Shown piece by piece: positions 1,444 to 59,833 of a stretch of DNA of 64,000 nt. The notes under the pieces were generated by a model. It searched no databases. It was not told where the DNA came from and saw only the letters and a program-made list of their open reading frames with translations. The first letter of the stretch is position 1, and each line of letters begins with the position of its first letter. Source of the stretch: Bosea vaviloviae (GTDB lineage: Bacteria; Pseudomonadota; Alphaproteobacteria; Rhizobiales; Beijerinckiaceae); assembly GCF_001741865.1 (NCBI RefSeq), contig NZ_CP017147.1, forward strand, positions 2,657,001 to 2,721,000, given 5' to 3'. The position numbers were made by a program, and so were the translations under genes.

Positions 1444-4400
1444 TTATTCGAAGCGCCCGCTGGCATGGGCCAGCATCGTGTAGACCTTGCCGGTCTCGGA
1501 GGTCAGGTAGGTCTTGGCCACCATCGAGTCGCGGTCGTCCTTGGCCGCCTCGCCGAGCAGGCGCTCGAACTCGTCGATGTAACGGTCGACCGTCTCCTTG
1601 AATTCGGTGTCGCGGCGGTATTTGCGCCGGATCTCGTCGAAGGTCTGCTGGCCCTGCAGCGTGTAGAGCCGGCGCGTGAAGACGTTGCGCTCGCCGCGCT
1701 TGTAGCGGTCCCACAACTCGACGGCCGCTTCGTGGTCGATCATCCGGGCGATGTCGACGGAGAGCGAATCGAGCTTCTCGATCGAATGCGCGGTCGGCTT
1801 GCTGGCCTCGCTGGGCTGCTCCTCGCGCGAGGCGCGGTTGAGCAGGTCGGAGAGCCAGCCCGCCTTCGCCGGCGGCTGAACCTCCGGCTGCGGCGCGGGG
1901 GCGCGTCGCGGCGCGTCCTCGGCAGGGGCGGGGCGGGGTGCCGGCGCCGGTGCCGGCTTGGGGGCCTCGACCCGCGCTTCGGTGCGGGCGGGCTGCTGGG
2001 GCGCAGCGTCGAACGAAGGCCGCAATTGCGGCGGCTCGCTGACCGCGGGCAGGCGCGCCTGCGTCACGGTCGTATAGGCCGGCACTGTTACGGTCTGCGC
2101 GGGGGAGGCGCGGCGGGCTGGAGCCTCGGCGGGGAGGGTGACGTCGTTGCGCCGGCCCGATTTGGTGACGATCTCGGTCAGCTCGTTCAGCGCCTTGATC
2201 TGCTCGGAGACGACGCGGCGCATGGCGGAGGTCGATTCCTGCGTCTCGCGGGGCAGGTCCAGTACGCCGCGCGAGAGCTCGGCGCGCGTCGCTTCCAGCT
2301 CGCGCTTGATGTCGGCCGTGACGGACCGCATGTCCTGGGCCGCGCCCTGGAAGCGTTCGGTCACCTTGGCAAGCTCGCCGCCGACCTCGTTGGTGACCTG
2401 CTCATAGGCCGAGCGCAGCGCATGGGCGGTGCGTTCGCGCTCCTTGCCGGTCGTGGTGCGGATCAGCTCGAACTGCTGCGTCAGCGCGGTGGTCGTGGCT
2501 TCGGCCGAGTCGCTCAGCACGCCGCCGATCTGGCGCGCGCGCGCCTCGGCCGAGCTCAGCGAATCGTCGATCAAGGCAGCAAAGGAGCGCGTGATCGATT
2601 CCACGTCGTCGGTGCGGGTGGCAATCAGCCCGTGCAGCTCCTCCAGCGTGTCCTTGCGATCGGAGAGGGCCTTGCCGACGCGGGCCTCGACCTGCTCGAG
2701 CCGCGTCGCGACGGCATGAAGCGCGGCTGCGCTCGCCTGGGTCGCCTCGGTCAGCGAAGCGCCCTTGTCGTCGAGCTGGCCGACGAGGGCGGTGGTCTGC
2801 CGCAGCGTGCCCTCGGAGAAGGTCTTCAGCTCCGAGACCTGGGCCGCGACCTGCTCGGAAGCGCGCCCGGTCTCCTCCATTACCGTGGCGACGACGCTCT
2901 GCAACTCGCCGACGCGGGCCGAGAGTCCGCCTTCGATCGCGCCGAGGTTCTTGTTCGCCCCGGTCACGATCTGCTGCATCAGCTTGTTGGCTTCGCCGAG
3001 GCGTCCCAGCATGCCGCCGAGCTCGTCGCGCAGCTGTTCATTGGTGGCGACGAGCGTGTCGACCGATTGGCGCGTGCCGGATTCCAGCGTCTCGCGCAGG
3101 CCGCTGGACGAGGCGTCGAGCGCGCTCGTGATCTCGGCGCCGCGATCGCGCAGCCCCTCGATGATCGAGGTGCCGCGGCTCTCGATGGCGCGTACGACGG
3201 TCTGACCGACATTGGCGACTTCGCCGGCGATGGCCTCGCCGCGCTGGCTCAGCGCGCCGAGCATGCCGCCGCCGGTCTCGTCGAACATGATGCGCAATTC
3301 GTCGGCGCGGGTGCCGAGCGCGACCGTGATCGCGTCCGACTTGCTCTGCAGCGTGTCGGCGAATTCGCGGCTGCGGGTGTCGAGCGTGCCCGAGACCGTA
3401 TCGAGCCGGTTGACGACCCGTTCCTCGAAGCGCGCCACGCTCTGGTCGAGCGTATCGGCGATCTGCAGGGCGCGGCCGCCCAGCGTCGCATTGATCGCAT
3501 CGGCCTTGTCGCTGAGCGTGCGCGTCAGCGATTCGCTCTTGGACGTCACGACCTCGCCGATCTCGTCGGCCTTGGCCGCAAGCGCGCGGGTGACTTCGCG
3601 GCCGCCTTCGGCGAGCACGCGTGCGATATCGACGGTGCGCTCGACCAGCGCCTCGTTGAGCGCGGTCGCCCGCGAACCGAGATTGCCGTCGATCCGTGCG
3701 ATCAGCCCGTCGAGCGACTGCCCGATCTCGGCGCTCTTGGCGCTGGAGCGTTCCTCGAAGACCCGGATCTGGAGCTCCATCGCCTGGGCGGCCTCGTTGG
3801 TCCGCGCCGCCAGGATCTCGGACGCCTCGCTGGAGCGCGCCCCGACCTTGTCGGCGAGCGCCTGGCCCTCATGGGTGAGCAGGCGTTCGACCTGGGCAAG
3901 GCGTGACGTCACGGTGTCGGTGAAGCCGCGGGCATTGTCGGCGAGCCTGGAGGCAAGCGCGCCGCCCTGGTTGAGCACGATGTCCTCGAAGGCTGCCAGG
4001 CGTGCGCCCAGGCCTTCCGTGATCTCGCGGCCCTGCGCGTCGAAGAGCTGGATCAGCGCGTCATGCTTGCCGGCGAGCGCCTCGTTGAGCGCCTGCGAGC
4101 GGCTCTCGACCGAACGCAGCATCGATTCGGCGTTGGCGGCGAGCGCCTCGTTGACGCGTCCACCCTGCTGCGTGAGCGCCAGCACGATCTCGCGGCCGGT
4201 GCCGGCGAGCAGGGTCCGGGCGTCCTCGGCATGGATGGTGAAGGTGTCGCGCAGGCCTTGTGTGGCCTCGGTGACGCGCTCGGCGACATGGCGGCCATCA
4301 ACATTGATGGTTTCGGTCAAGACGCGGGTGGCGTCCGTCATGCGGCGGGCCAGATCCTCGCTCTGCTCGCCGAGCAGGCCGTGGACCTCGCGGCCGGTCG

Positions 4401-7383
4401 AGACGAGATCGCGGACCATCGCCTCGCGCTGCTCGCCCAGCAGCGCGCCGACCTGGTCGCCGGTCTCGCCCAGCCGGGTGAGGAAGCCGCTCTGCTGCTC
4501 GTCGAGCGCGGCGCGGGCGCCGTCGGTCGCCTGCTTGACCCGCTCGGTCAGCGCTGTCGCCTGCTCGTCGAGCTGGCGGTTCATGGTATCGCCGGTCTCG
4601 CCGAGCCTGGTGATCAGGGCGCTGCTGCGTTCGGCCAGCACGCCGTGCACGGAGCGGCCGACATCGGTGATGCGCATCACCAGGGCCTGGCTCTCATTGC
4701 CGAGCAGGTCCTTGATCTCAAGCCCGGCCTGCGAAACCTTGACGGTCATCGCGCCGGCCTGCTCGTCGAGCAGCGCGCTGACGCGCGAGCCCGTCTCCGA
4801 CAGGCCCGAGATCAGGGCGGCGCTCTGCGTGCCGATCAGGCCGTGAAGCTGCTCGCCCGCCAGGCCGAGGCGCTCGACCAGCGCGTCGCCATGCTTGCCG
4901 ACAAGGACGTCGATGTCCTGCGTCGCCTGTCCGAGCCGCGAGACGAGGGACTGGGTGCGTGCCTCGAGCAGGCTGTCGACATCCTGTCCCGCGCCTGAAA
5001 CGCGCGACACGAGGGCCTCGCTGCGGCTGTCGAGCAGCCTGACGGTCTCGCCGCCGGCGCTGGAGACGCGCGTGACGAGAGCGTCGCTCTGCTCGTTCAT
5101 CAGCGCGACGACATCCTTGCCCGCGCCGGACACAAGCGAGACCAGGGCTTCGCTTTGAGCCGCGAGCAGCCCATGCACCTCCTGGCCTGCGCCGGTGACG
5201 CGCGAGACCAGGGTCTCGCTTTGAGCCGCGAGCAGCCCATGCACCTCCTGGCCTGCACCGGTGACGCGCGAGACCAGGGTCTCGCTTTGAGCCGCGAGCA
5301 GCCCCTGCACCTCCTGGCCTGCACCGGTGACGCGCGAGACCAGGGTCTCGCTTTGAGCCGCGAGCAGCCCCTGCACCTCCTGACCTGCGCCAGTGACGCG
5401 CGAGACCAGGGTCTCGCTATGGCCGTCGAGCAGCCTGACGGCTTCATTGCCGGCGCCTGAAACGCGCGAGACCAGGGCCTCGCTATGGCCGTCGAGCAGC
5501 CTGACGGCCTCATTGCCGGCGCCCGAAACGCGCGAGACCAGCTTGTCCGCCTGGCCGTCGAGCAGCGCGTGGACGGTCTCGCCGGTTTCCGCCAGGCGCG
5601 TCACCAGGCTGCCGCCCTGTTCGGTGAAGAGCCCGTGGACCGATGCGCCGACCTCGGTGATGCGCGAGGTCAGGTCCTGGCCATGGCGGCTGACGGTATC
5701 GCCGATCGACTTTCCGGCCTCGTCGACGCGCAGGATGATGGCGTCGCTGCGCTCGCGCAGCACGTCGTCGACCGTCCGCGCCGTCTCGTTCAGGCGCGTC
5801 ACCAGGCTTTCGCCCTGGGTGCCGATCAGGCTGTTCACGCTCTCGCCGATCTCGAGCAGGCGCGAGGCGATGTGTTCGTTCTGGCGGCTGAGCAGGCCGT
5901 GGACGCCGCGCCCGACCTCGGCAAGGCGCGTCGTGACGCTTTCGCCTTCCTCGGAGAGCGAGGCGCGCAAGGTTTCGCCGGTTTCCGCGAGCTTGGCGCC
6001 CAGCGCCTCGCTCTGTCCTTCGATCAGCGCGATCATGCCGCGGCTGGAAGTTTCGAAACGCTCGGCGACATCGGCGCCGCGGGTGGAGATTTCCTTGGCG
6101 AGGCCTTCGCCGGTGAGGCGCAGCGTCTCGTTCACGGTCTCGGCGCGCTGGGCCAGCGAATCGACGACCTGCGTGCCGGTCTCGCTGATGGCGCGGGTCA
6201 CGTCCCTGGCGCCCGTGGTCAGGCCCTCGGTGAGGATGGCGCCGGTGCGTTCCAGCGAGGTTGCGATCTCCTGGGCGCGGCCGTCGAGCAGCGTCGACAG
6301 GTTGTCGCTGGCTCCCGCCAGCCGCTCGCTGACCTCGCCGGAGGTGATCTGCAGGCGCTCGACCAGGTCGTTGCCGCGGCCGCTGATCTCGTCGACCATG
6401 CGTTCGCCCGCCCGTCCCAGCGCCAGGGTGATCTGGTCGCCCTTTTCGCCGAGCGAGCCGGTGACCCTGTCGCCGGCCAGGGTGACGGCCTCGGCGATGA
6501 CGCGGCTGGCGTTGTCGAGGTCCTTGGACAGGCTCTCATGGGCGCCGCTGATGGCGAATTTCACACGCTCGGCATTGCCGACGACCGCTTCGCGCTGCGT
6601 CACGAGTTCGTCGATCAGCGAGCGCAGCCGGATCTCGTTATCGGCATAGGCGCGCTCCAGCGTCGCGATCTCTCCGCGCACGATCGTCTCCAGCTCGCCG
6701 GCGCGCGCGACGGCGCGCTCGATGCCGTCCCCCATCGCAGCGACTTCGCGACGGATGGTCTGGCTGAGCGAGAGGATGGAATCGGCGCCGACGATCTCGG
6801 GCTCGGCCAGCCGCAGGGCGACTTCGGTCATGGCGCGCGAGACGAGGCGCATCTCCTGGGTGCGCCGGTAGAGCGCGGCCAGGACGAAGAAGAAGATCAC
6901 GGGCGCGCCGGCGAACAGCGCCAGCAGCGTCCACTCGCCGATGCCGAAGGCGGTGAGACGCTCGGAGAGGCCGTTGGAGAGGGTGCCGTAGCGGCTGACC
7001 AGCAGGAAGAAGGCGCCGCCGAGCCAGCCGAGCGAGGCGAGCGCAGCAAACCAGTAGGGACGCAAGGAGGGGCGGGCGGAGAAGGCCTGGACCAGCGAAC
7101 TCGAATCGCGCCGGTCGTCATTGGCGACGCGGCTCGTATCGGGCGCGATCAGCGGGCGCTGCGTCGATTGCGGCGCAGGTGCAGCCGGCTGCGGCTGGGC
7201 GGGCGCGGCGGCTTCGACACGGGGAAGCTCGATCTTCAGATCGGTGTCGGCAGTCATGGGCAGCTTGGGCTCGGCTGCCGTGCCGGTCTCGGCGTCGCTT
7301 TTCGGCTGGTCCAGCCGCAGCGCCTCCTCGATCGCCGACATCGCGGCTTCGGTCGGGTCTTGGAGCTTTTTTTGCCGGGTCAT
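1444..7383 (-). CDS. gpr: Giant membrane-anchored coiled-coil protein, growth-pole ring (GPR/RgsE) type
   Basis: The protein has 1,979 residues. It starts with a cytoplasmic region rich in Ala and Pro (1-105), followed by two likely membrane segments (about 110-130 and 151-172). A helical region of roughly 22-residue repeats runs from about 200 to 1,730, in the style of apolipoprotein A repeats. A Pro/Ala-rich linker follows, then a conserved globular C-terminus (about 1,880-1,979, with WDRYKRGERNVFTRRLYTLQ). This layout and size match GPR of Agrobacterium (about 2,100 residues) and RgsE of Sinorhizobium, which form a ring at the growing pole and are needed for unipolar growth. The start is ATG 7383. 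The gene is monocistronic and has its own terminator. The ortholog call is from architecture and recall, not from an alignment. Confidence 0.75.
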   Translation of the reverse strand: MTRQKKLQDPTEAAMSAIEEALRLDQPKSDAETGTAAEPKLPMTADTDLKIELPRVEAAAPAQPQPAAPAPQSTQRPLIAPDTSRVANDDRRDSSSLVQAFSARPSLRPYWFAALASLGWLGGAFFLLVSRYGTLSNGLSERLTAFGIGEWTLLALFAGAPVIFFFVLAALYRRTQEMRLVSRAMTEVALRLAEPEIVGADSILSLSQTIRREVAAMGDGIERAVARAGELETIVRGEIATLERAYADNEIRLRSLIDELVTQREAVVGNAERVKFAISGAHESLSKDLDNASRVIAEAVTLAGDRVTGSLGEKGDQITLALGRAGERMVDEISGRGNDLVERLQITSGEVSERLAGASDNLSTLLDGRAQEIATSLERTGAILTEGLTTGARDVTRAISETGTQVVDSLAQRAETVNETLRLTGEGLAKEISTRGADVAERFETSSRGMIALIEGQSEALGAKLAETGETLRASLSEEGESVTTRLAEVGRGVHGLLSRQNEHIASRLLEIGESVNSLIGTQGESLVTRLNETARTVDDVLRERSDAIILRVDEAGKSIGDTVSRHGQDLTSRITEVGASVHGLFTEQGGSLVTRLAETGETVHALLDGQADKLVSRVSGAGNEAVRLLDGHSEALVSRVSGAGNEAVRLLDGHSETLVSRVTGAGQEVQGLLAAQSETLVSRVTGAGQEVQGLLAAQSETLVSRVTGAGQEVHGLLAAQSETLVSRVTGAGQEVHGLLAAQSEALVSLVSGAGKDVVALMNEQSDALVTRVSSAGGETVRLLDSRSEALVSRVSGAGQDVDSLLEARTQSLVSRLGQATQDIDVLVGKHGDALVERLGLAGEQLHGLIGTQSAALISGLSETGSRVSALLDEQAGAMTVKVSQAGLEIKDLLGNESQALVMRITDVGRSVHGVLAERSSALITRLGETGDTMNRQLDEQATALTERVKQATDGARAALDEQQSGFLTRLGETGDQVGALLGEQREAMVRDLVSTGREVHGLLGEQSEDLARRMTDATRVLTETINVDGRHVAERVTEATQGLRDTFTIHAEDARTLLAGTGREIVLALTQQGGRVNEALAANAESMLRSVESRSQALNEALAGKHDALIQLFDAQGREITEGLGARLAAFEDIVLNQGGALASRLADNARGFTDTVTSRLAQVERLLTHEGQALADKVGARSSEASEILAARTNEAAQAMELQIRVFEERSSAKSAEIGQSLDGLIARIDGNLGSRATALNEALVERTVDIARVLAEGGREVTRALAAKADEIGEVVTSKSESLTRTLSDKADAINATLGGRALQIADTLDQSVARFEERVVNRLDTVSGTLDTRSREFADTLQSKSDAITVALGTRADELRIMFDETGGGMLGALSQRGEAIAGEVANVGQTVVRAIESRGTSIIEGLRDRGAEITSALDASSSGLRETLESGTRQSVDTLVATNEQLRDELGGMLGRLGEANKLMQQIVTGANKNLGAIEGGLSARVGELQSVVATVMEETGRASEQVAAQVSELKTFSEGTLRQTTALVGQLDDKGASLTEATQASAAALHAVATRLEQVEARVGKALSDRKDTLEELHGLIATRTDDVESITRSFAALIDDSLSSAEARARQIGGVLSDSAEATTTALTQQFELIRTTTGKERERTAHALRSAYEQVTNEVGGELAKVTERFQGAAQDMRSVTADIKRELEATRAELSRGVLDLPRETQESTSAMRRVVSEQIKALNELTEIVTKSGRRNDVTLPAEAPARRASPAQTVTVPAYTTVTQARLPAVSEPPQLRPSFDAAPQQPARTEARVEAPKPAPAPAPRPAPAEDAPRRAPAPQPEVQPPAKAGWLSDLLNRASREEQPSEASKPTAHSIEKLDSLSVDIARMIDHEAAVELWDRYKRGERNVFTRRLYTLQGQQTFDEIRRKYRRDTEFKETVDRYIDEFERLLGEAAKDDRDSMVAKTYLTSETGKVYTMLAHASGRFE
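5154..5549 (-). repeat. 66-bp in-frame tandem repeat array inside gpr
   Basis: Four nearly identical 66-bp units start at 5154, 5220, 5286 and 5352. Two units of a second type start near 5417 and 5483. Each unit encodes 22 residues of the rod (core SRVTGAGQEVQGLLAAQ). Most other 22-residue repeats in the rod are far more diverged, so these copies look recently amplified. Confidence 0.92.
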
Positions 7384-10992: not shown

Positions 10993-11169
10993 GGCGGCGA
11001 GCCTTAGAGCATCAGGCTTGTCGATGGAAACACTGCGTCGTCCCGGGGCTCATCGCAGAGCGTCATTCTCGGGCTTGCCCCACGACTGTCCGGTTCGCCG
11101 CGAGCGCCCGATCGAAAAGCTCCGTTCATTGAAGGCTTTCCAGCGAGCGGCGACGAATGAGACAGGCGC
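10993..11169. other. Gene-free stretch with repeat remnants
   Basis: No gene is supported here. Together with the repeat and insertion-sequence end up to 11406 it forms a 413-bp non-coding block. Pieces such as GAGCGTCATTCTCGGGCTTG near 11060-11080 resemble one arm of the family C palindromes. Confidence 0.5.
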
Positions 11170-11323
11170 GGGGAACCCTTCTCCCGTGTGGGAGAAGGGC
11201 AGGGATGAGGGCAGGCCAGACAACCAGGTCGCGCAAGCGGCTCCGCATCGCCGCCTGCGCTTTCAGGATGAAGCCGGCGCTGCGGCTCTGCCTCTCCCCA
11301 ACAATCAGCGGCAGGCCCTCATC

Positions 11324-12587: not shown

Positions 12588-12832
12588 ATCCCTGCCCTTC
12601 TCCCATCCGGGAGAAGGGTTCCCCGCGCCCTTGATCCGGCACTTCGCTTCATCCCGCCCGCGAGAGGAGAGCCGTGCATGATCCGCTCAGAGGCCAAAAC
12701 CCCAACCGGGCAGCAGTGGGTCAAGCCCGACCATGACGCGCTTCGGATCCCGGGTCTGCGCCTCGCGACGCCGAGAATGACGGCTGGTTCCAAGGCAACG
12801 CGTCAAGCTGCAGAGGCCGGAGCCGGCGCTTG
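12588..12832. other. Intergenic stretch with the end of a family A repeat
   Basis: The first 37 bases are the right end of the split family A element. The rest holds no convincing gene; GCGACGCCGAGAATGACGG near 12767-12785 resembles a family C arm. Confidence 0.5.
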
Positions 12833-14008: not shown

Positions 14009-14091
14009 CAGGCTAATGTGTGGGGCCTGAGCCTGCGGTCAAGCCGCTCTTGCGCACATCCTGCTGTGGTCGAAAAGTTGGAGCAGGATCA

Positions 14092-14122
14092 ATGCGAAAA
14101 ACCGGTTCCCACTTTTTCGCAT
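14092..14122. repeat. Family E short palindrome
   Basis: ATGCGAAAAA (14092-14101) and TTTTTCGCAT (14113-14122) are perfect 10-bp arms around CCGGTTCCCAC. The same core recurs near 14230, 52209 and 59765. Confidence 0.85.
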
Positions 14123-14159
14123 CCAGCTCTCGCCTGGCGGCTAGCACCGTTCTCTCCGC

Positions 14160-21735: not shown

Positions 21736-21765
21736 GGGTAAGCCGCGACGATGCCGGAAGGGCGC

Positions 21766-21983
21766 GGGGAACCCTCTCCCATAGGGAGAGGGCAGGGTGA
21801 GGGGTAGGCTGTTTGACACCGGGGCCGTGAGCTAACCGTAGCCGCCATTAGGTTTTCACCTTACTGGTCCAGCGGCCTACACCTCACCCCAGCCCCTCTC
21901 ACCGATCTCGGGCTTGCCCGAGATCGGCACTCAGAGTGTCGAAGTCGGGTAGACCCGACTTCGATGCAGGAGAGGGGTTCCCC
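21766..21983. repeat. Family A element with two palindromes in its right hairpin loop
   Basis: GGGGAACCCTCTCCC on the left and GAGAGGGGTTCCCC on the right are the ends of a 218-bp element. In the loop of the right arm, between CCCCTCTC (21893-21900) and GAGAGGGG (21970-21977), lie two further perfect palindromes. They are CCGATCTCGGGC/TT/GCCCGAGATCGG at 21902-21927 and CGAAGTCGGGT/AG/ACCCGACTTCG at 21940-21963. Confidence 0.88.
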
Positions 21984-29202: not shown

Positions 29203-29235
29203 ATCGCACCCTCCGTCCTGGCGATGGCGAGGCGC

Positions 29236-29471
29236 GGGGAACCCCTCTCCTGTAAGGAGAGGAGCAGGGGTGAGGTGTAGGCCCCTGGACCAGCAGGGTG
29301 AGACCTTGCCGTCATTGCGAGCGCAGCGAAGCAATCCAGGAGGGCTCGCTCTACGTCCCCTAGATTGCTTCGCTGCGCTCGCAATGACGATGAAACGGCG
29401 GTCAGGTCTGAGTGCAGGCGTCCAACGGCCGACCCCTCACCCTGCCCTCTCCCTACGGGAGAGGGTTCCCC
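29236..29471. repeat. Family A element with a family B copy nested in it
   Basis: The ends are GGGGAACCCCTCTCC and GGGAGAGGGTTCCCC. An 80-bp family B palindrome occupies 29310-29389 in the middle. The junction on one side reads GCAAGGTCTCAC in the reverse orientation, matching GCAAGGTGTCAC at the same point of the compound element at 34910. The 310-bp gap between xdhB and xdhC holds nothing else. Confidence 0.85.
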
Positions 29472-29512
29472 GCGGTGGGTTCGCGAACGATTGAGGCGCG
29501 ATAGAGCGGTGA

Positions 29513-31873
29513 TCATGCGCCCACCTCCGCCTTGACCCGCTCCACCGCCGTCAGCACCCGCTCCGGCGTCGCCGGCGCATCGAGCCGCGGGCAGACCCTG
29601 TGTCCACCGACGCTCGCCACCGCGTCGGAGAGCGCGTGCAGAACCGAGATCGCCAGCATCAGTGGCGGCTCACCCACCGCCTTGGAGCGATGGATCGTCG
29701 GCTCGCGATTGGGCGCGTTCTCCAGGAGATCGACATTGAAGATGCGTGGTCGGTCCGACGCGACGGGGATCTTGTAGGTCGAGGGCGCATGCGTCTTGAG
29801 CCGGCCCTTCTCGTCCCAGACCAGCTCCTCCGTGGTGAGCCAGCCCATGCCCTGGATGAAGCCGCCCTCGATCTGGCCCTTGTCGATCGCCGGATTCAGC
29901 GACGTCCCGCAATCATGCAGGATGTCGACCCGCTCGACCTTGTATTCGCCGGTCAGCGTGTCGATCGCGACCTCGGCAGCGGCTGCGCCATAGGCGAAGT
30001 AATAGAACGGGTGGCCGCGCCCGGCCTTGCGGTCCCAATGGATCTTTGGCGTCGCGTAGAAGCCGGTCGCCGAGAGTTGGATGCGGGCCATATAGGCGGC
30101 CTGGACGAGTTCGGCGAAAGCGATCTCGCGCGCGCCGATCTGCACGCGGCCGGGCAGGAAGGCGATGGCGTCGGGCTCCTCCTGCCAGTTCCTGGCCGCG
30201 AAGGCGGTCATCCGCGCCTTGATCGTCTCGCAGGCGTCGAGCGCCGCCATGCCGTTGAGATCCGAACCTGAGGAAGCGGCGGTGGCGGAGGTGTTGGGCA
30301 CCTTGCCGGTCGTCGTGGCGGTGATCTTGATCTGGTCCAGCCCGATGCCGAAGGCATGGCCCACGACCTGGGCGACCTTCACATGCAGCCCCTGGCCCAT
30401 CTCGGTGCCGCCATGGTTCAGCATCACCGTGCCGTCGGTATAGACATGCACCAGCGCGCCGGCCTGATTGTACCAGGTCGCGGTGAAGGAGATGCCGAAT
30501 TTGACCGGCGTCAACGCGATGCCGCGCTTGATGATCGGACTTCCCGCATTGAAGGCGCGGATCGCCTCCTGCCGGGCCTTGTAGTCGCAGCGGCGTTCGA
30601 GCTCTGCGATGACCTCGCCGCCGATCATGTCCTCGACGGTCTGGTGATAGGGCGTGACGTTCCGGCCAAGCCCTTCACTGGAGGAACTGCCGCCATAGAG
30701 ATTGCGCCGGCGCACCTCCAGCGGGTCGAGCCCGGTCGCGAAGGCGACCTCCTCGATGAAGCGCTCGGCCCCGACCATGCCTTGCGGCCCGCCAAAGCCG
30801 CGGAAGGCGGTGTTCGAGACGGTGTTGGTGCGCAAGGGCTCGGAGCGGGCGCGCACCGCCGGGTAGAAATAGCAATTATCCATGTGGAACAGCGCGCGGT
30901 CGGTCACGGGGCCCGACAGATCCGCGTTCCAGCCGCAGCGCGCGGCATAGACCGTGTCGACCGCCAGGATATGGCCGTCATCGTCGAAGCCGATCTCGTA
31001 ATCGCAGACGAAATCATGGCGCTTGCCGGTGATGACCATATCGTCGTCGCGGTCGGGCCTGAGCTTCACCGGCCGCCTGAGCTTGCGGGCGGCAAGCGCG
31101 GCGACGCAGGCGAAGAGATTGGCCTGCGTCTCCTTGCCGCCAAAGCCGCCACCCATGCGCCGGATCTCGACGGTGACCGCATGCGAGCCGACGCCGAGCA
31201 CCTGGGCGACCATGTGCTGGACTTCGCTAGGATGCTGCGTCGAGGAGGCGACGAACATGTCCTCGTCCTCGCCGGGAATGGCGAGCGCGATCTGGCTTTC
31301 CAGGTAGAAATGATCCTGCCCGCCGATCGCCATCGAGCCCTTCAGGCGGCGCGGGCTCGCGGCAAGCGCAGCCGAGACATCGCCGCGTTCGAGCTTGAGC
31401 GGGTCGGTGACGAGTTCCCCACCGGCAGCGCGGGCGGCGGCGATGTCGAGGAGCGGCGCGGTCTCCTGATACTCCGCCTTGGCGAGCAGGGCCGCACGCC
31501 GCGCCTGATCGCGCGTTTCGGCAACGACCGCGAAAAGCGGCTGGCCGTGGTGCAGGATCATCTCCGTCGCGAAGACCGGCTCGTCATGGCGATGTGTCGA
31601 GGAGATGTCGTTCTGGCCCGGAATATCCCCGGCCGTCAGCACGCAAAGCACGCCGGGCGCGGCGCGAACGGGTTCAAGATCGAGCGCAACCAAGCGGCCA
31701 TGGGCGATCTCGCTCAGGCCGAGGCAGGCATGGACGAGGCCGGCGGGCTCGGGGATATCGTCGATATAGATCGCCTCGCCGGCGACATGCTTGATGGCGG
31801 AATCATGCGGCTGTGCGGCGCTGACTGGTCCTGTCGTGCTCTCGGGATCGAGCCGCTTGCGCGCGTCAGCCAT
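29513..31873 (-). CDS. xdhB: Xanthine dehydrogenase molybdopterin subunit XdhB
   Basis: The 786-residue subunit binds the molybdenum cofactor and oxidises hypoxanthine to xanthine and urate. Visible motifs are RRMGGGFGGKETQ, AFRGFGGPQGM, GGTEMGQGLHVK and KAVGEPPLMLA. E735 in the last corresponds to the catalytic base of bacterial xanthine dehydrogenases. Length and domain order are normal. Its ATG overlaps the xdhA stop by eight bases. Confidence 0.95.
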   Translation of the reverse strand: MADARKRLDPESTTGPVSAAQPHDSAIKHVAGEAIYIDDIPEPAGLVHACLGLSEIAHGRLVALDLEPVRAAPGVLCVLTAGDIPGQNDISSTHRHDEPVFATEMILHHGQPLFAVVAETRDQARRAALLAKAEYQETAPLLDIAAARAAGGELVTDPLKLERGDVSAALAASPRRLKGSMAIGGQDHFYLESQIALAIPGEDEDMFVASSTQHPSEVQHMVAQVLGVGSHAVTVEIRRMGGGFGGKETQANLFACVAALAARKLRRPVKLRPDRDDDMVITGKRHDFVCDYEIGFDDDGHILAVDTVYAARCGWNADLSGPVTDRALFHMDNCYFYPAVRARSEPLRTNTVSNTAFRGFGGPQGMVGAERFIEEVAFATGLDPLEVRRRNLYGGSSSSEGLGRNVTPYHQTVEDMIGGEVIAELERRCDYKARQEAIRAFNAGSPIIKRGIALTPVKFGISFTATWYNQAGALVHVYTDGTVMLNHGGTEMGQGLHVKVAQVVGHAFGIGLDQIKITATTTGKVPNTSATAASSGSDLNGMAALDACETIKARMTAFAARNWQEEPDAIAFLPGRVQIGAREIAFAELVQAAYMARIQLSATGFYATPKIHWDRKAGRGHPFYYFAYGAAAAEVAIDTLTGEYKVERVDILHDCGTSLNPAIDKGQIEGGFIQGMGWLTTEELVWDEKGRLKTHAPSTYKIPVASDRPRIFNVDLLENAPNREPTIHRSKAVGEPPLMLAISVLHALSDAVASVGGHRVCPRLDAPATPERVLTAVERVKAEVGA

Positions 31874-33482
31874 GGTCGGCCTCCGCCAGCAGCCCGGCGA
31901 CGCGTGTGGCCGCCCCGGTTTGCGTCGTCTCGATCAGGAAACGCCGCAGCAGATTGCCCGCGACCCTGAGGCGGTATCCCGCCGACGCGCGCATGTCGGT
32001 GAGCGGCTGGAAATCGCTCGCCAAGGCGGAGATGGCATCGGTGACAGCCATCTCGTCCCAAATGCGTCCCGTCAATGCAGCCTCGGCGGCCTTTGCCCGC
32101 TTCGGGATGCCGGCCATGCCGCCATAGGCGAGGCGCGCTTCGCTGATCGCGCCGGTGGCATCGCGGCGCAGGAAGAATGCGCCGCAGAGGGCCGAGATGT
32201 CCTCGTCGAAGCGCTTCGAGATCTTGGAGACGTGGAACAGCGCATCCGTCGGCAGTTTCGGCACCAGGACCGCCTCGAGGAATTCACCGGGCTGGCGATC
32301 CTGCTTGCGGTAGTCGAGGAAGAAGTCTTCGAGCGGGATGGTGCGGCGCTGGAGTGCTCCTGTCTCTTCCGTCATCGCGAGCACCCGGGTCTTGCCTTCG
32401 GCAAGCCCAAGTACAGGCTCCGCGAAGCGATCCAGGGGGGCTCGCTCGACGTCCCCCTGGATTGCTTCGTCGCTGCGCTCCTCGCAATGACGGGAACGCG
32501 CCAGCACCAGCCGCGCGCCGAGCGCGATCAGCGCCGGCGGCAGGTCGCCGATCGGCGAGCCATTGGCGATGTTGCCGCCGATCGTGCCGGCATTGCGGAC
32601 CTGCTCGCCGCCGAAGCGCCGCATCAATTCGTCGAGCTGTGGCGACAAGACCGCCAGCGCCTTGCGAACATCGACATGATTGACCATCGCGCCGATGCGC
32701 AGATGGTCGCCCTCATCGGCGATGTCACGCAGCGCCTCGATCCGGCCGAGCGAGATCACGGGAGAGAGCCGCCGCATGCCCTTGGTCACCCAGAGCCCGA
32801 CATCGGTCGCGCCGGCGACCAGCGTCGCATCGGGGTCGGCGAGCATGAGTTCAGCGAGGGCTGTGAGGCTTGCCGGTGCGTAGAAGCGGCTGCCCTCGCC
32901 GCCCAGCGCCAGCGTCTCCTGGTCCTGGAGCGCACCGAGCTTGCTTGCGATCCGCGGCCGGTCCATCGCGAAACGGTCCTGAGACCGCTTACCGAGCCCG
33001 TACATGCGCTGCGCCGCGGCGATGATGGGCTCGTAGCCGGTACAGCGGCAGAGATTGCCAGCCAGCGCGTCCTCGATGCGCGTCACGACGGGCGCATCCT
33101 CGTTCAGCCAGAGCGCGAATAGCGACATGACGAAGCCCGGCGTGCAGAAGCCGCATTGCGAGCCATGGCAGTCGACCAGCGCCTGCTGGACCGGATGGAG
33201 CGCGCCGTCGGCGCCCTTCAGATGCTCCACGGTGAGCAATTGGCAGCCGTCCAGCGTCGCCAGAAAGCGGATGCAGGCGTTGATCGCCTCATAGCGCAAC
33301 GTGCCCCGGTCGAGCCGCCCGACCACCACGGTGCAGGCGCCGCAATCGCCCTCGGCGCAGCCTTCCTTGGCACCGGTCAGGCGCTGGTCGAGGCGCAGCC
33401 AGTCGAGCACGGTCAGCGTCGGATCGCAGGATGCGAGCTCGACCAGCCTGTCGCCGAGGAGGAAGCGCAGCGTTTCACGCAT
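31866..33482 (-). CDS. xdhA: Xanthine dehydrogenase FeS/FAD subunit XdhA, with repeat-encoded insert
   Basis: The 538-residue subunit has a plant-type 2Fe-2S domain (C42, C47, C50, C80), a second 2Fe-2S domain (CGFCTPGF and GNLCRCTGYEP), an FAD domain (TLVAGATDVGLW) and a C-terminal CO dehydrogenase-type domain. Electrons pass from XdhB to NAD. Residues about 331-371 (HCEERSDEAIQGDVERAPLD and onward) are encoded by a family B repeat, inserted in frame between LVLAR and RRTIPLEDFF, which are normally near one another. The protein is about 40-50 residues longer than expected for this reason. Confidence 0.93.
   Translation of the reverse strand: MRETLRFLLGDRLVELASCDPTLTVLDWLRLDQRLTGAKEGCAEGDCGACTVVVGRLDRGTLRYEAINACIRFLATLDGCQLLTVEHLKGADGALHPVQQALVDCHGSQCGFCTPGFVMSLFALWLNEDAPVVTRIEDALAGNLCRCTGYEPIIAAAQRMYGLGKRSQDRFAMDRPRIASKLGALQDQETLALGGEGSRFYAPASLTALAELMLADPDATLVAGATDVGLWVTKGMRRLSPVISLGRIEALRDIADEGDHLRIGAMVNHVDVRKALAVLSPQLDELMRRFGGEQVRNAGTIGGNIANGSPIGDLPPALIALGARLVLARSRHCEERSDEAIQGDVERAPLDRFAEPVLGLAEGKTRVLAMTEETGALQRRTIPLEDFFLDYRKQDRQPGEFLEAVLVPKLPTDALFHVSKISKRFDEDISALCGAFFLRRDATGAISEARLAYGGMAGIPKRAKAAEAALTGRIWDEMAVTDAISALASDFQPLTDMRASAGYRLRVAGNLLRRFLIETTQTGAATRVAGLLAEADHG
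32371..32492. repeat. Family B repeat in frame inside xdhA
   Basis: The copy runs from GTCATCGCGAGCACCCGGG to CTCCTCGCAATGAC and contains CTTGCCTTCGGCAAG plus TACAGGCTCCGCGAAG, as in the copy at 52052. No stop or frameshift is introduced. Confidence 0.92.
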
Positions 33483-34909: not shown

Positions 34910-35200
34910 CCCTCTCCAATCCAAGTCGATGTTTCCGACTTGGGTCACGATCTCTGCCAATCTCGGGCAAGCCCGAGATTGGTGGGAGAGGGCAGAGTGA
35001 GGGGTCGGCCGTTGGACGATATGGCCGTGTCCCAACCGCTGCTCCATCGTCATTGCGAGCGTAAGCGAAGCAATCCAGGAGGGTTCGCTCTACGCCCCCT
35101 GGATTGCTTCGCTTACGCTCGCAATGACGGCAAGGTGTCACGCAACTGGTCGAGAGGCCTGCCCGTGTTCAACAAACTCGGAGATTGTTGAACACGGGAT
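34910..35200. repeat. Compound repeat: family A halves around a family B copy, with nested palindromes
   Basis: CCCTCTCC (34910-) and GGGAGAGGG (34984-34992) form an arm whose loop holds CCAAGTCG...CGACTTGG (34921-34943) and CCAATCTCGGGC/AA/GCCCGAGATTGG (34957-34982). Family B occupies 35048-35129. At the far end, 14-bp arms CCCGTGTTCAACAA (35162-35175) and the complement (35185-35198) may terminate the aminotransferase transcript. This fills the 308-bp gap. Confidence 0.8.
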
Positions 35201-52170: not shown

Positions 52171-52199
52171 GTGTGGTACAGGCTAAATCACCCCCGAGG

Positions 52200-52235
52200 G
52201 CATTGCCCATGCGAAAAACCGGTACCCACTTTTTC
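52200..52235. repeat. Family E palindrome overlapping the SulP start
   Basis: ATGCGAAAAACCGGTACCCA and the closing TTTTTCGCAT match the copy at 59765. ATG 52209 is the first base of the left arm and the only plausible in-frame start of the transporter. Confidence 0.85.
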
Positions 52236-53880
52236 GCATCCTCCTCTCATGGGCTCGGCCGCGACATCGTCGCCGGGCTGACGCTGGCGGCGATCACCAT
52301 TCCCGAGCAGATGGCGACCGCGCGTCTCGGCGGCTTCGAGCCGCAGATCGGCTTCTTCGCTTTCGTCGCGGCAACGCTGGGCTTCGCCGTCTTCGGCGCC
52401 AGCCGCGTCCTCACCGTCGGGGCGGATTCGACGATCACGCCGATCTTCGCCGGGGGGCTCGCCATACTCGCCGCCAGCGGCGGCAATCTGAGCCAGACCG
52501 CGCCGACGCTGGCTGTCCTGGTCGGCGTGCTGCTTCTGCTCGGTGGCGTGTTCAGGCTCGGCTGGATCGCGGATCTGCTGTCGACGCCCGTCATCACCGG
52601 TTTCCTGGCCGGCGTGTCGATCCATATCCTGGTGTCGCAGCTGCCGAGCCTGTTCGGCCTTCCCGGCGGCAGCCACAAGCTCGTCTCGCAGGTCCAGGAG
52701 ATCTATGCGCACAGGGGCGCGATCAACCCCTGGTCGACGGCGATCGGCCTGTCCGTGCTGGCGATCATGCTGGTCTGCGAGCGCGTCGCGGCGCGGTTGC
52801 CGGGCGCCTTGATCGCGCTCGGGCTGGCGACGATGGCGGTGATGCTGTTCGGGCTCGAGGCGCGTGGCGTCGCGGTCCTCGGCGTCCTGCCCGAGGGTTT
52901 GCCGCCGCGCTTCAGCCCGGATCTGGGCTGGGAGGATTTCCGGCAACTCCTGCCGCTGGCGCTGATCGTCAGCCTGGTCATCATGATGCAGACGGCGACC
53001 GTCAGCCGGTCCTTCCGGGCTCCGGATGGGGCGGAGGCCGATGTCGGCCGCGACTTCCTCGGCCTGGGAGCCGCCAATCTGCTCGCCGGGCTGGCGGGCG
53101 CCTTTCCCGTCAATGCGAGCCCGCCGCGTACCGCGGTCGTGGTCGAAAGCGGCGGCGGCAGCCAGCTTGGCGCGCTGACGGCTGCGGCCTTGGTACTGGC
53201 CTTGGCGCTGGCGGGAGGTTCCCTGCTCGCCCATGTGCCGGAGGCGGCGCTGGCTGGCGTCCTGCTCTTCGTCGCCCAGCGGATCTTTCGGCTCGGCACG
53301 ATCCTGACCATAGCGCGGCAGGCGCCGGCCGAATTCGCCCTGATCCTGTTCACCGCGCTTGCGATCATCCTTTTGCCGATCGAGACCGGCGTCGCCATCG
53401 GCGTGACTGTCGTTGATCCACGGCGTCTGGATGACGACGCGCAGCCAGCCGATCGCGTTCAACAAGATCGCGGGGACGACGATCTGGTGGCCGCCGGGCG
53501 AGGGCGGCGAGATCGAGCCGGTGCCCGATGTGCTCGTCGTCGCCTTCCAGGCGCCGCTGCTTTTCGCCAATGCGCAAAGCTTCCAGCACGGCATGCTGGA
53601 CCTGCTCGAGCGCCAGCGCCCGGCGCTCCTCGTCCTCGAGGCGGGCGGCATCGCCGCGATCGACTACACCGCCGCCCAGTCTCTCCTGGCCGTGGCCGGT
53701 GTTTGTCGCGACCGGGGCATCGCCTTTGCGATCGCCCGCGTCGAATCGGTGCGTGCGCGCCGGGCCCTGCAGCAATTCGGCGTCGTCGCCGCGATCGGCC
53801 AGGACCATCTCTTCCACAGCGTCGACGAGGCCGTCGGCGCGCTGCGACCCGGCGCTCGAAAGGGCGCGGCTGGCGCCTGA
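52209..53880 (+). pseudogene. SulP-family anion transporter with frameshift before the STAS domain
   Basis: The first frame (52209 to about 53408) encodes the SulP membrane domain from GRDIVAGLTLAAITIPEQMA to LIETGVAIGVT-like sequence. Family logic then expects a continuation into IHGVWMTTRSQPIAFN, which is present but in another frame from 53413. That frame continues to a full STAS domain (LVVAFQAPLLFANAQSF, VLEAGGIAAIDYTAAQSL) ending at 53880. A two-base loss within GACTGTCG near 53408 explains the shift. A sequencing error would also explain it. Residues 1-12 are encoded by a family E repeat. Confidence 0.85.
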
Positions 53881-59694: not shown

Positions 59695-59805
59695 GATCAC
59701 GTCACATTCGGACGGAATCGTCCGAATGTGACGTGATCGATTCCAAGAGTTGAGAGCATTGCTCATGCGAAAAACCGGTACCCACTTTTTCGCGCAATGC
59801 TCTCG
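59695..59805. repeat. Composite repeat: family F followed by family E
   Basis: F is at 59695-59738, with 20-bp arms (GATCACGTCACATTCGGACG and its complement) around GAAT. E follows after ATTCCAAGAGTTGAGAGC. The order and spacers are the reverse complement of 14219-14330. Confidence 0.88.
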
Positions 59806-59833
59806 TGGCGAGCGATGATGCGAGGCAATGACG

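Follow-up and report, generated by a model that had tools for sequence, protein, structure and literature searches.

Two described systems come closest to the repeat analysed here. The CGTC-tagged repetitive extragenic palindromic sequences (REPs) of Di Nocera et al. (2013; PMC3733652) are, in the portion of that paper available to us, characterised by a CGTC end, an AT at the stem start, a CCA tail and an arrangement mainly as inverted dimers (HH), with stems of 8-9 bp, loops of 4-5 and no dedicated transposase. According to the same portion they are mostly intergenic, occur in Alphaproteobacteria and are known also inside genes, and two of the Rickettsia palindromic elements (RPEs), RPE-4 and RPE-6, are assigned to them; Bosea does not figure there. 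The second system is the RPEs themselves; where different RPE groups occupy one site, the authors of PMC3767692, in the part of the text at hand, favour a single origin and leave hotspots possible. Palindromes read in frame are thus far best known from Rickettsia, and REPs inside genes have been described in several bacteria. Here we describe a palindromic repeat, family B, that lies in frame within xdhA, the gene for the xanthine dehydrogenase small subunit, in Bosea vaviloviae (contig NZ_CP017147.1, positions 2,657,001 to 2,721,000 of the forward strand; this stretch of 64,000 nucleotides is called the window). In xdhA and two further Bosea genes such repeats are read in frame and have dispersed copies, at least two repeat families occur at each site, and their distribution among relatives is scattered. 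From these sequence comparisons we consider it probable that a few permissive protein loops in Bosea repeatedly receive, exchange and lose REPs of several families.

The in-frame repeat in xdhA and its dispersed copies

The gene, the repeat and the segment that is extra relative to a homolog with an empty loop are placed in the window as follows.

31866..33482, minus strand: xdhA, encoding the 538-aa small subunit of xanthine dehydrogenase with its Fe-S and FAD domains; from open reading frame (ORF), Pfam and PDB alignment
32370..32492, minus strand: family B palindromic repeat, made of two CGTC-tagged units in inverted orientation and translated as residues 331-371 of XdhA; from sequence, dispersed copies and hairpin
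32352..32495, minus strand: xdhA codons 330-377, within which the empty homolog P0009 lacks 46 residues; from alignment

The insert measures 123 bp, or 41 codons, and its frame is open throughout, within a protein carrying the Pfam domains Fer2, Fer2_2, FAD_binding_5 and CO_deh_flav_C. A first-pass annotation had proposed that residues about 331-371 are translated from a family B repeat with the frame kept and both flanks normal, and this is borne out by the alignment to Rhodobacter capsulatus XdhA (2w3r, 1jro), in which the insert flanks meet around the single chain residue 311. Near relatives of the window genome include Bosea psychrotolerans and Bosea lathyri. When XdhA is aligned with P0009, a near Bosea homolog whose loop is empty, there are 46 gap positions, all inside query 330-377 and none elsewhere, and the lengths of XdhA thus do show a gap at this place. 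As single-stranded DNA the element folds into a hairpin (z -6.2). Judging by the R. capsulatus alignment and the fold of the protein, the insert may form a surface loop in the FAD domain. An artefact or a pseudogene was ruled out by the open frame, the normal flanks and the presence of such inserts in many relatives.

When the genome was searched with a 125-nt stretch covering the insert, 52 rows at E <= 0.001 were returned, representing 40 sites (12 rows being opposite-strand reads); 36 of these match nearly the full stretch, and the best dispersed copy reaches 94% identity. This search scored 40 of the 235 first-look candidates. The strict monomer pattern CGTCATTGCGAG...GAAGCRATCCAG has 242 matches in the genome (120 + 122) and none when the pattern is reversed as a control. 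In these monomers the terminal CGTC leads into AT and the tail reads CCA, as in CGTC-tagged REPs; plus and minus strict monomers form inverted pairs at 12 of the 18 first-listed sites. The family B dimer folds strongly (z -9.5); a lone 30-nt unit, folded as DNA, forms a 5-bp outer stem with 2 inner pairs (z +0.33). By its end motif, AT start and CCA tail family B looks like a CGTC-tagged REP. Rfam gave zero matches at the gathering threshold across the 64-kb window.

To the 40 sites of the 125-nt search we added the first 100 of the 242 strict monomers, giving 105 sites after merging. Each was judged on whether the frame is open through the element with at least 40 aa on either side and coding-like base use, the one kind of overlap with genes that was scored. 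Only three of the 105 passed, namely those in xdhA, a glycosyltransferase and a dual ABC ATPase, so that in this sample family B is mostly extragenic, like the CGTC-tagged REPs. Also in the window are the molybdenum subunit gene and two family B copies near xdhA.

29513..31873, minus strand: xdhB, molybdenum subunit; from ORF and Pfam
29295..29395, no strand assigned: neighbouring family B copy downstream of xdhB, for comparison
35048..35135, no strand assigned: neighbouring family B copy, past the gene that diverges from xdhA, for comparison

Several repeat families at three sites across Bosea

Across 37 Bosea genomes, the xdhA loop contains family B in 7, a different palindromic family (C) in 7 and neither in 20, leaving 3 unclassified (G025, G030 and G033); G005, G007, G011 and G028 were scored empty from coordinates alone. 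The first-pass annotation had allowed that all close relatives might carry the same segment with unrelated DNA: this fails for the 20 of 37 genomes without the segment, and is half true in that 7 of 37 have a different repeat family there. Among the 30 xdhA loci fetched from Bosea, 7 carry B, 7 carry C (a half copy in G034), 8 have a 31-residue segment between the motifs and 8 a 35-residue version free of repeats. The best 120 protein relatives of XdhA comprise 24 with B (P0027 being assigned by eye), 23 with C, 63 short empty and 10 longer empty forms. This list was ordered by resemblance to a protein carrying B, which makes the count over genomes the less biased of the two. Several B spacer types are present among the XdhA inserts. 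Family C (CCTCATCCTGAGGAG...) has 28 strict monomers in the B. vaviloviae genome and, by a different type of search from the monomer pattern, 51-156 first-look candidates per genome in seven C-bearing genomes. By eye, B and C share the plan 'CGTC or CCTC, AT ... AT, CCAG' and differ in arm sequence. Half or remnant C elements that are still in frame occur in the xdhA of G034 (L016) and in the glycosyltransferase of G022 (L257), and are perhaps deletion intermediates.

Ten REP-peptide words sought in 143 XdhA rows were absent outside the loop, and the rest of the protein is nearly constant in length. Of 80 XdhA loci from other bacteria, 71 were readable by eye, and no insert was found in any of them, which rules out an insert common to other bacteria. 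With a looser motif applied by script, 66 loci from other bacteria were readable, 64 of them at one of two lengths, the others being L113 (a pattern mismatch) and L096 (a match that is not the XdhA loop).

On a tree of the 143 XdhA rows built with the loop excised, B and C are scattered. At least 38 changes are required to account for insert versus empty, and 14 to account for B versus C among the inserted rows. The B label takes 21 changes against a mean of 23.4 when shuffled (equally low in 37 of 500 shuffles) and the C label 23 against 25.2 (47 of 500), whereas the 31-residue empty form is clustered (32 changes against 48.1 in shuffles, 0 of 500). If only the well supported branches are counted, B still has to change 7 times or more and C 13 times or more, and in a set of 39 rows, hand-picked to hold neighbours differing in state, a single clade was rejected for all inserted, all B and all C rows (largest p-AU, from the approximately unbiased test, 3.05e-34). 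Neighbours of unlike state are well supported in places: P0090 (B) pairs with P0113 (C) at 100/100, for example, and at 99/97 the C-bearing P0048 pairs with the empty G003.

The two other genes show the same multi-family pattern, so xdhA is no lone accident. In the glycosyltransferase the family B site lies between the two domains of the protein, and among 22 matching genomes of the genus 4 hold B (G000, which is B. vaviloviae, G004, G008 and, shortened, G019), 4 hold C (short or remnant in G002 and G022), 1 holds a third repeat, 12 are empty and 1 (G010) is doubtful. The third repeat is in frame in G015 and resembles copies in the window, for example 21761-21900 (79%) and 29395-29474 (90%). 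In the dual ABC ATPase the site falls in the linker between the two ATPase stretches recognised by Pfam; the 9 close homologs have B in G000, G004 and G009, C in G010, G015 and G019, and nothing in G001, G008 and G011. G004 also has a paralog, and there the equivalent linker contains C. One TGA lies inside the ABC ATPase matches of four Bosea genomes (L287, L288, L290 and L291); for G010, G015 and G019 it is outside the linker stretch that was read.

The window also holds further repeats. A third palindromic family (GGGAACCCTCTCCC... type) occurs at 21761-21900, 29231-29474, 34981-35018, 11161-11204 and 12590-12630, and the in-frame repeat of the G015 glycosyltransferase is related to it; another dispersed repeat, with the core GCGAAAAACCGGTACCCACTTTTTCGC, at 14079-14135, 52196-52252 and 59752-59808; and 66-bp (22-codon) tandem repeats form an array of about 2 kb at 4339-6325. 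Elsewhere in the genome, at G000:C1:3105870-3106888 (L349-L351), a Y1 transposase resembling REP-associated tyrosine transposases (RAYTs) has an open frame of 227 aa, and ahead of it lie two partial copies of its gene in tandem. The RAYT label is our own reading of the Y1_Tnp match, and this protein is at most a candidate partner for family B; when repeat cores were sought around the locus, one CTCGCAATGA core was found about 0.8 kb away.

Proposed arrival, exchange and loss at the sites

In the explanation that we prefer, a CGTC-type REP pair of family B would have entered a tight turn of the XdhA FAD domain, its translation giving residues 331-371, and would have been retained because, as we propose, the turn can lengthen without breaking the enzyme. 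The XdhA turn, the interdomain stretch of the glycosyltransferase and the linker of the dual ABC ATPase would be permissive sites of this kind, at which REPs of several families may arrive, move from one species to another in the form of short alleles, swap stretches with copies dispersed in the genome and later be lost, while selection would remove nearly all insertions elsewhere in genes. This account presumes a surface position, retained enzyme activity, an insertion enzyme and near-neutrality of the inserts, each of which we infer. A stronger form of it, to which we give somewhat less than even chances, is that these are standing docking loops, in which REPs of different families come and go at a single codon position over spans of time comparable to those of species, replacing one another and undergoing conversion by dispersed copies, the peptides being trimmed by selection as in the loss of a Cys codon.

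Since two or three repeat families occur per site, there must have been at least as many arrivals. The idea that the B and C elements of the loop are instead one insertion that has diverged draws on the common flanking codons and constant frame of the inserted alleles and on the analogous conclusion reached for Rickettsia in the available part of PMC3767692, yet it appears very improbable: B and C both have many dispersed copies, the best 87-94% like the inserts, which is not expected of one diverging insert, empty alleles of the length seen in other bacteria adjoin B and C on the tree, and the glycosyltransferase site has three different repeats.

How far each element arrived separately or was passed on differs between cases. 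The G014 xdhA insert is 98% and 97% identical to those of G008 and G001 even though the genes themselves differ by about 20%; its best dispersed match reaches 91% among seven genomes and 90% in its own, with 40 dispersed candidates scored per genome. The 20-codon windows flanking this insert are 87 and 90% identical to G000, compared with 77 and 82% to the relative G003, and less clearly so against the relative G035 (85 and 82%). In this one case, allele exchange between species is supported by the sequences. By contrast, and in favour of separate arrival, the G024 insert is 77-81% identical to three other xdhA inserts and up to 87% to dispersed copies (84% within its own genome). The C insert of G036 is 93% identical to that of G035 and equally, at 93%, to dispersed copies of its own genome. 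The B. vaviloviae insert is itself a mosaic, its outer and left parts being of the G008/G014 type and the inner right part like dispersed 'long' copies, which suggests that dispersed copies have traded sequence with it or that a nested insertion took place.

32382..32421, minus strand: right arm of the xdhA insert, inner part (about 13 codons), missing in the G001, G008 and G014 xdhA inserts, though dispersed copies of the 'long' family B type in the B. vaviloviae genome have it; from insert sequences and an alignment of G008, G014 and five dispersed copies

The most serious competitor holds that each family inserted once or a few times and then spread among Bosea by homologous recombination of xdhA with little re-insertion, and we regard it as a real possibility, though one that probably does not hold. 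The close G014 insert, its G000-like flank windows and the constant frame are what it would predict. It does not predict that the G024 insert should be closer to dispersed copies than to other xdhA inserts, nor the several B spacer types in XdhA, and the pooled synonymous sites beside the insert, across 30 genomes, showed no linkage with insert state. Exchange can therefore explain only so much, and spread wholly via long recombination tracts is unsupported, the short exchange in G014 being the supported case. True hotspots, picked out through their sequence or structure by a transposition system, would account for B and C striking the same codon region, and the genome does encode the Y1 transposase with its tandem partial copies. 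That only a single CTCGCAATGA was met near that locus among the repeat cores sought counts against such targeting, which we judge unlikely.

A coding role of the peptide has one sign in its favour. In all 20 B inserts with the right arm in the LDxF frame (4 of 24 B inserts read this arm in another frame), Arg replaces the Cys of the usual dispersed repeat, while the Arg-type base occurs in 1 of 140 B. vaviloviae monomers examined (1 of 100 among the first monomers listed). The combined right-arm variant, allowing at most 1 mismatch, was found at 13 places in seven genomes, 5 of them xdhA inserts, and 3 of its 4 exact matches are in xdhA. The repeat-coded loop might thus have been put to use, for example in cofactor access, stability or partner binding, and its peptide kept by selection. 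We nevertheless find this slightly less credible still than targeting, as many relatives have no loop, the B and C peptides are dissimilar, and the Arg-type base is also present in dispersed copies, including four in G024. Shared descent, or selection against an exposed Cys, fits the loss of the Cys codon equally well.

Several observations weigh against repeated use of permissive loops, among them the missing synonymous linkage where exchange is concerned. Well supported inner branches number just 26 of 134 on the 143-row tree. In L001-L030, B and C alleles share with the 35-residue empty alleles an extra flank codon (mostly Ala, LVL-A-R) that is absent from the 31-residue empty alleles. All 24 B inserts of the 120 proteins start in the RHC frame, even though any given frame is free of stops in 45-61 of the 95 dispersed copies, and this constancy of frame and position in xdhA is a better fit to few insertions followed by exchange, or to precise targeting, than to many random insertions. 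Lastly, with no insert in the 71 readable loci from other bacteria, permissiveness outside Bosea is not obvious. Permissive loops re-used by several REP families remain, on balance, the probable explanation.

Comparison with known systems

Small mobile repeats that can code for peptide, the intragenic enterobacterial repeats among them, are reportedly located within genes as well (PMC2759123, PMC2229807). They resemble the Bosea inserts in being small mobile repeats in genes, and differ in repeat families and bacteria. In the literature searched nothing nearer turned up than these, the CGTC-tagged REPs and the RPEs.

What our data add to those precedents is a genus in which, for three genes, empty alleles exist alongside dispersed copies of each repeat family, and this argues for permissive sites that are re-used. 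Bosea has large genomes (3.2-7.6 Mb among relatives), in which one and the same gene can be empty or carry B or C; such alleles, together with the dispersed copies, make the question of hotspots versus one diverged insertion answerable by comparison and enzymology. Dispersed repeats can, it seems from the sequences, lengthen enzymes apparently without breaking them, and if docking loops exist they could repeatedly supply new peptide material at the same place of an enzyme.

Family B is like the CGTC-tagged REPs in its CGTC end, AT, CCA tail and inverted dimers, and in being mostly extragenic in an alphaproteobacterium. In the available part of PMC3733652, the sole case of unlike REPs at about one site concerns recB in two Xanthomonas, whereas in Bosea a loop is swapped among families genus-wide. 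The RPEs, chiefly RPE-4 and RPE-6, are likewise palindromes of about 100-150 bp that sit in frame and leave genes unbroken, with different groups at one ortholog locus (PMC3767692 and PMC10969869, as far as the accessible text goes). The likeness to RPEs drawn in the first-pass annotation is a sound one in that a dispersed palindromic repeat is read in frame between normal XdhA flanks; the host being Bosea and not Rickettsia, it is a likeness of behaviour. The two systems part where, in the text of PMC3767692 at hand, all Rickettsia orthologs are inserted at the site, while in Bosea empty alleles are common and dispersed copies are present in the same genomes.

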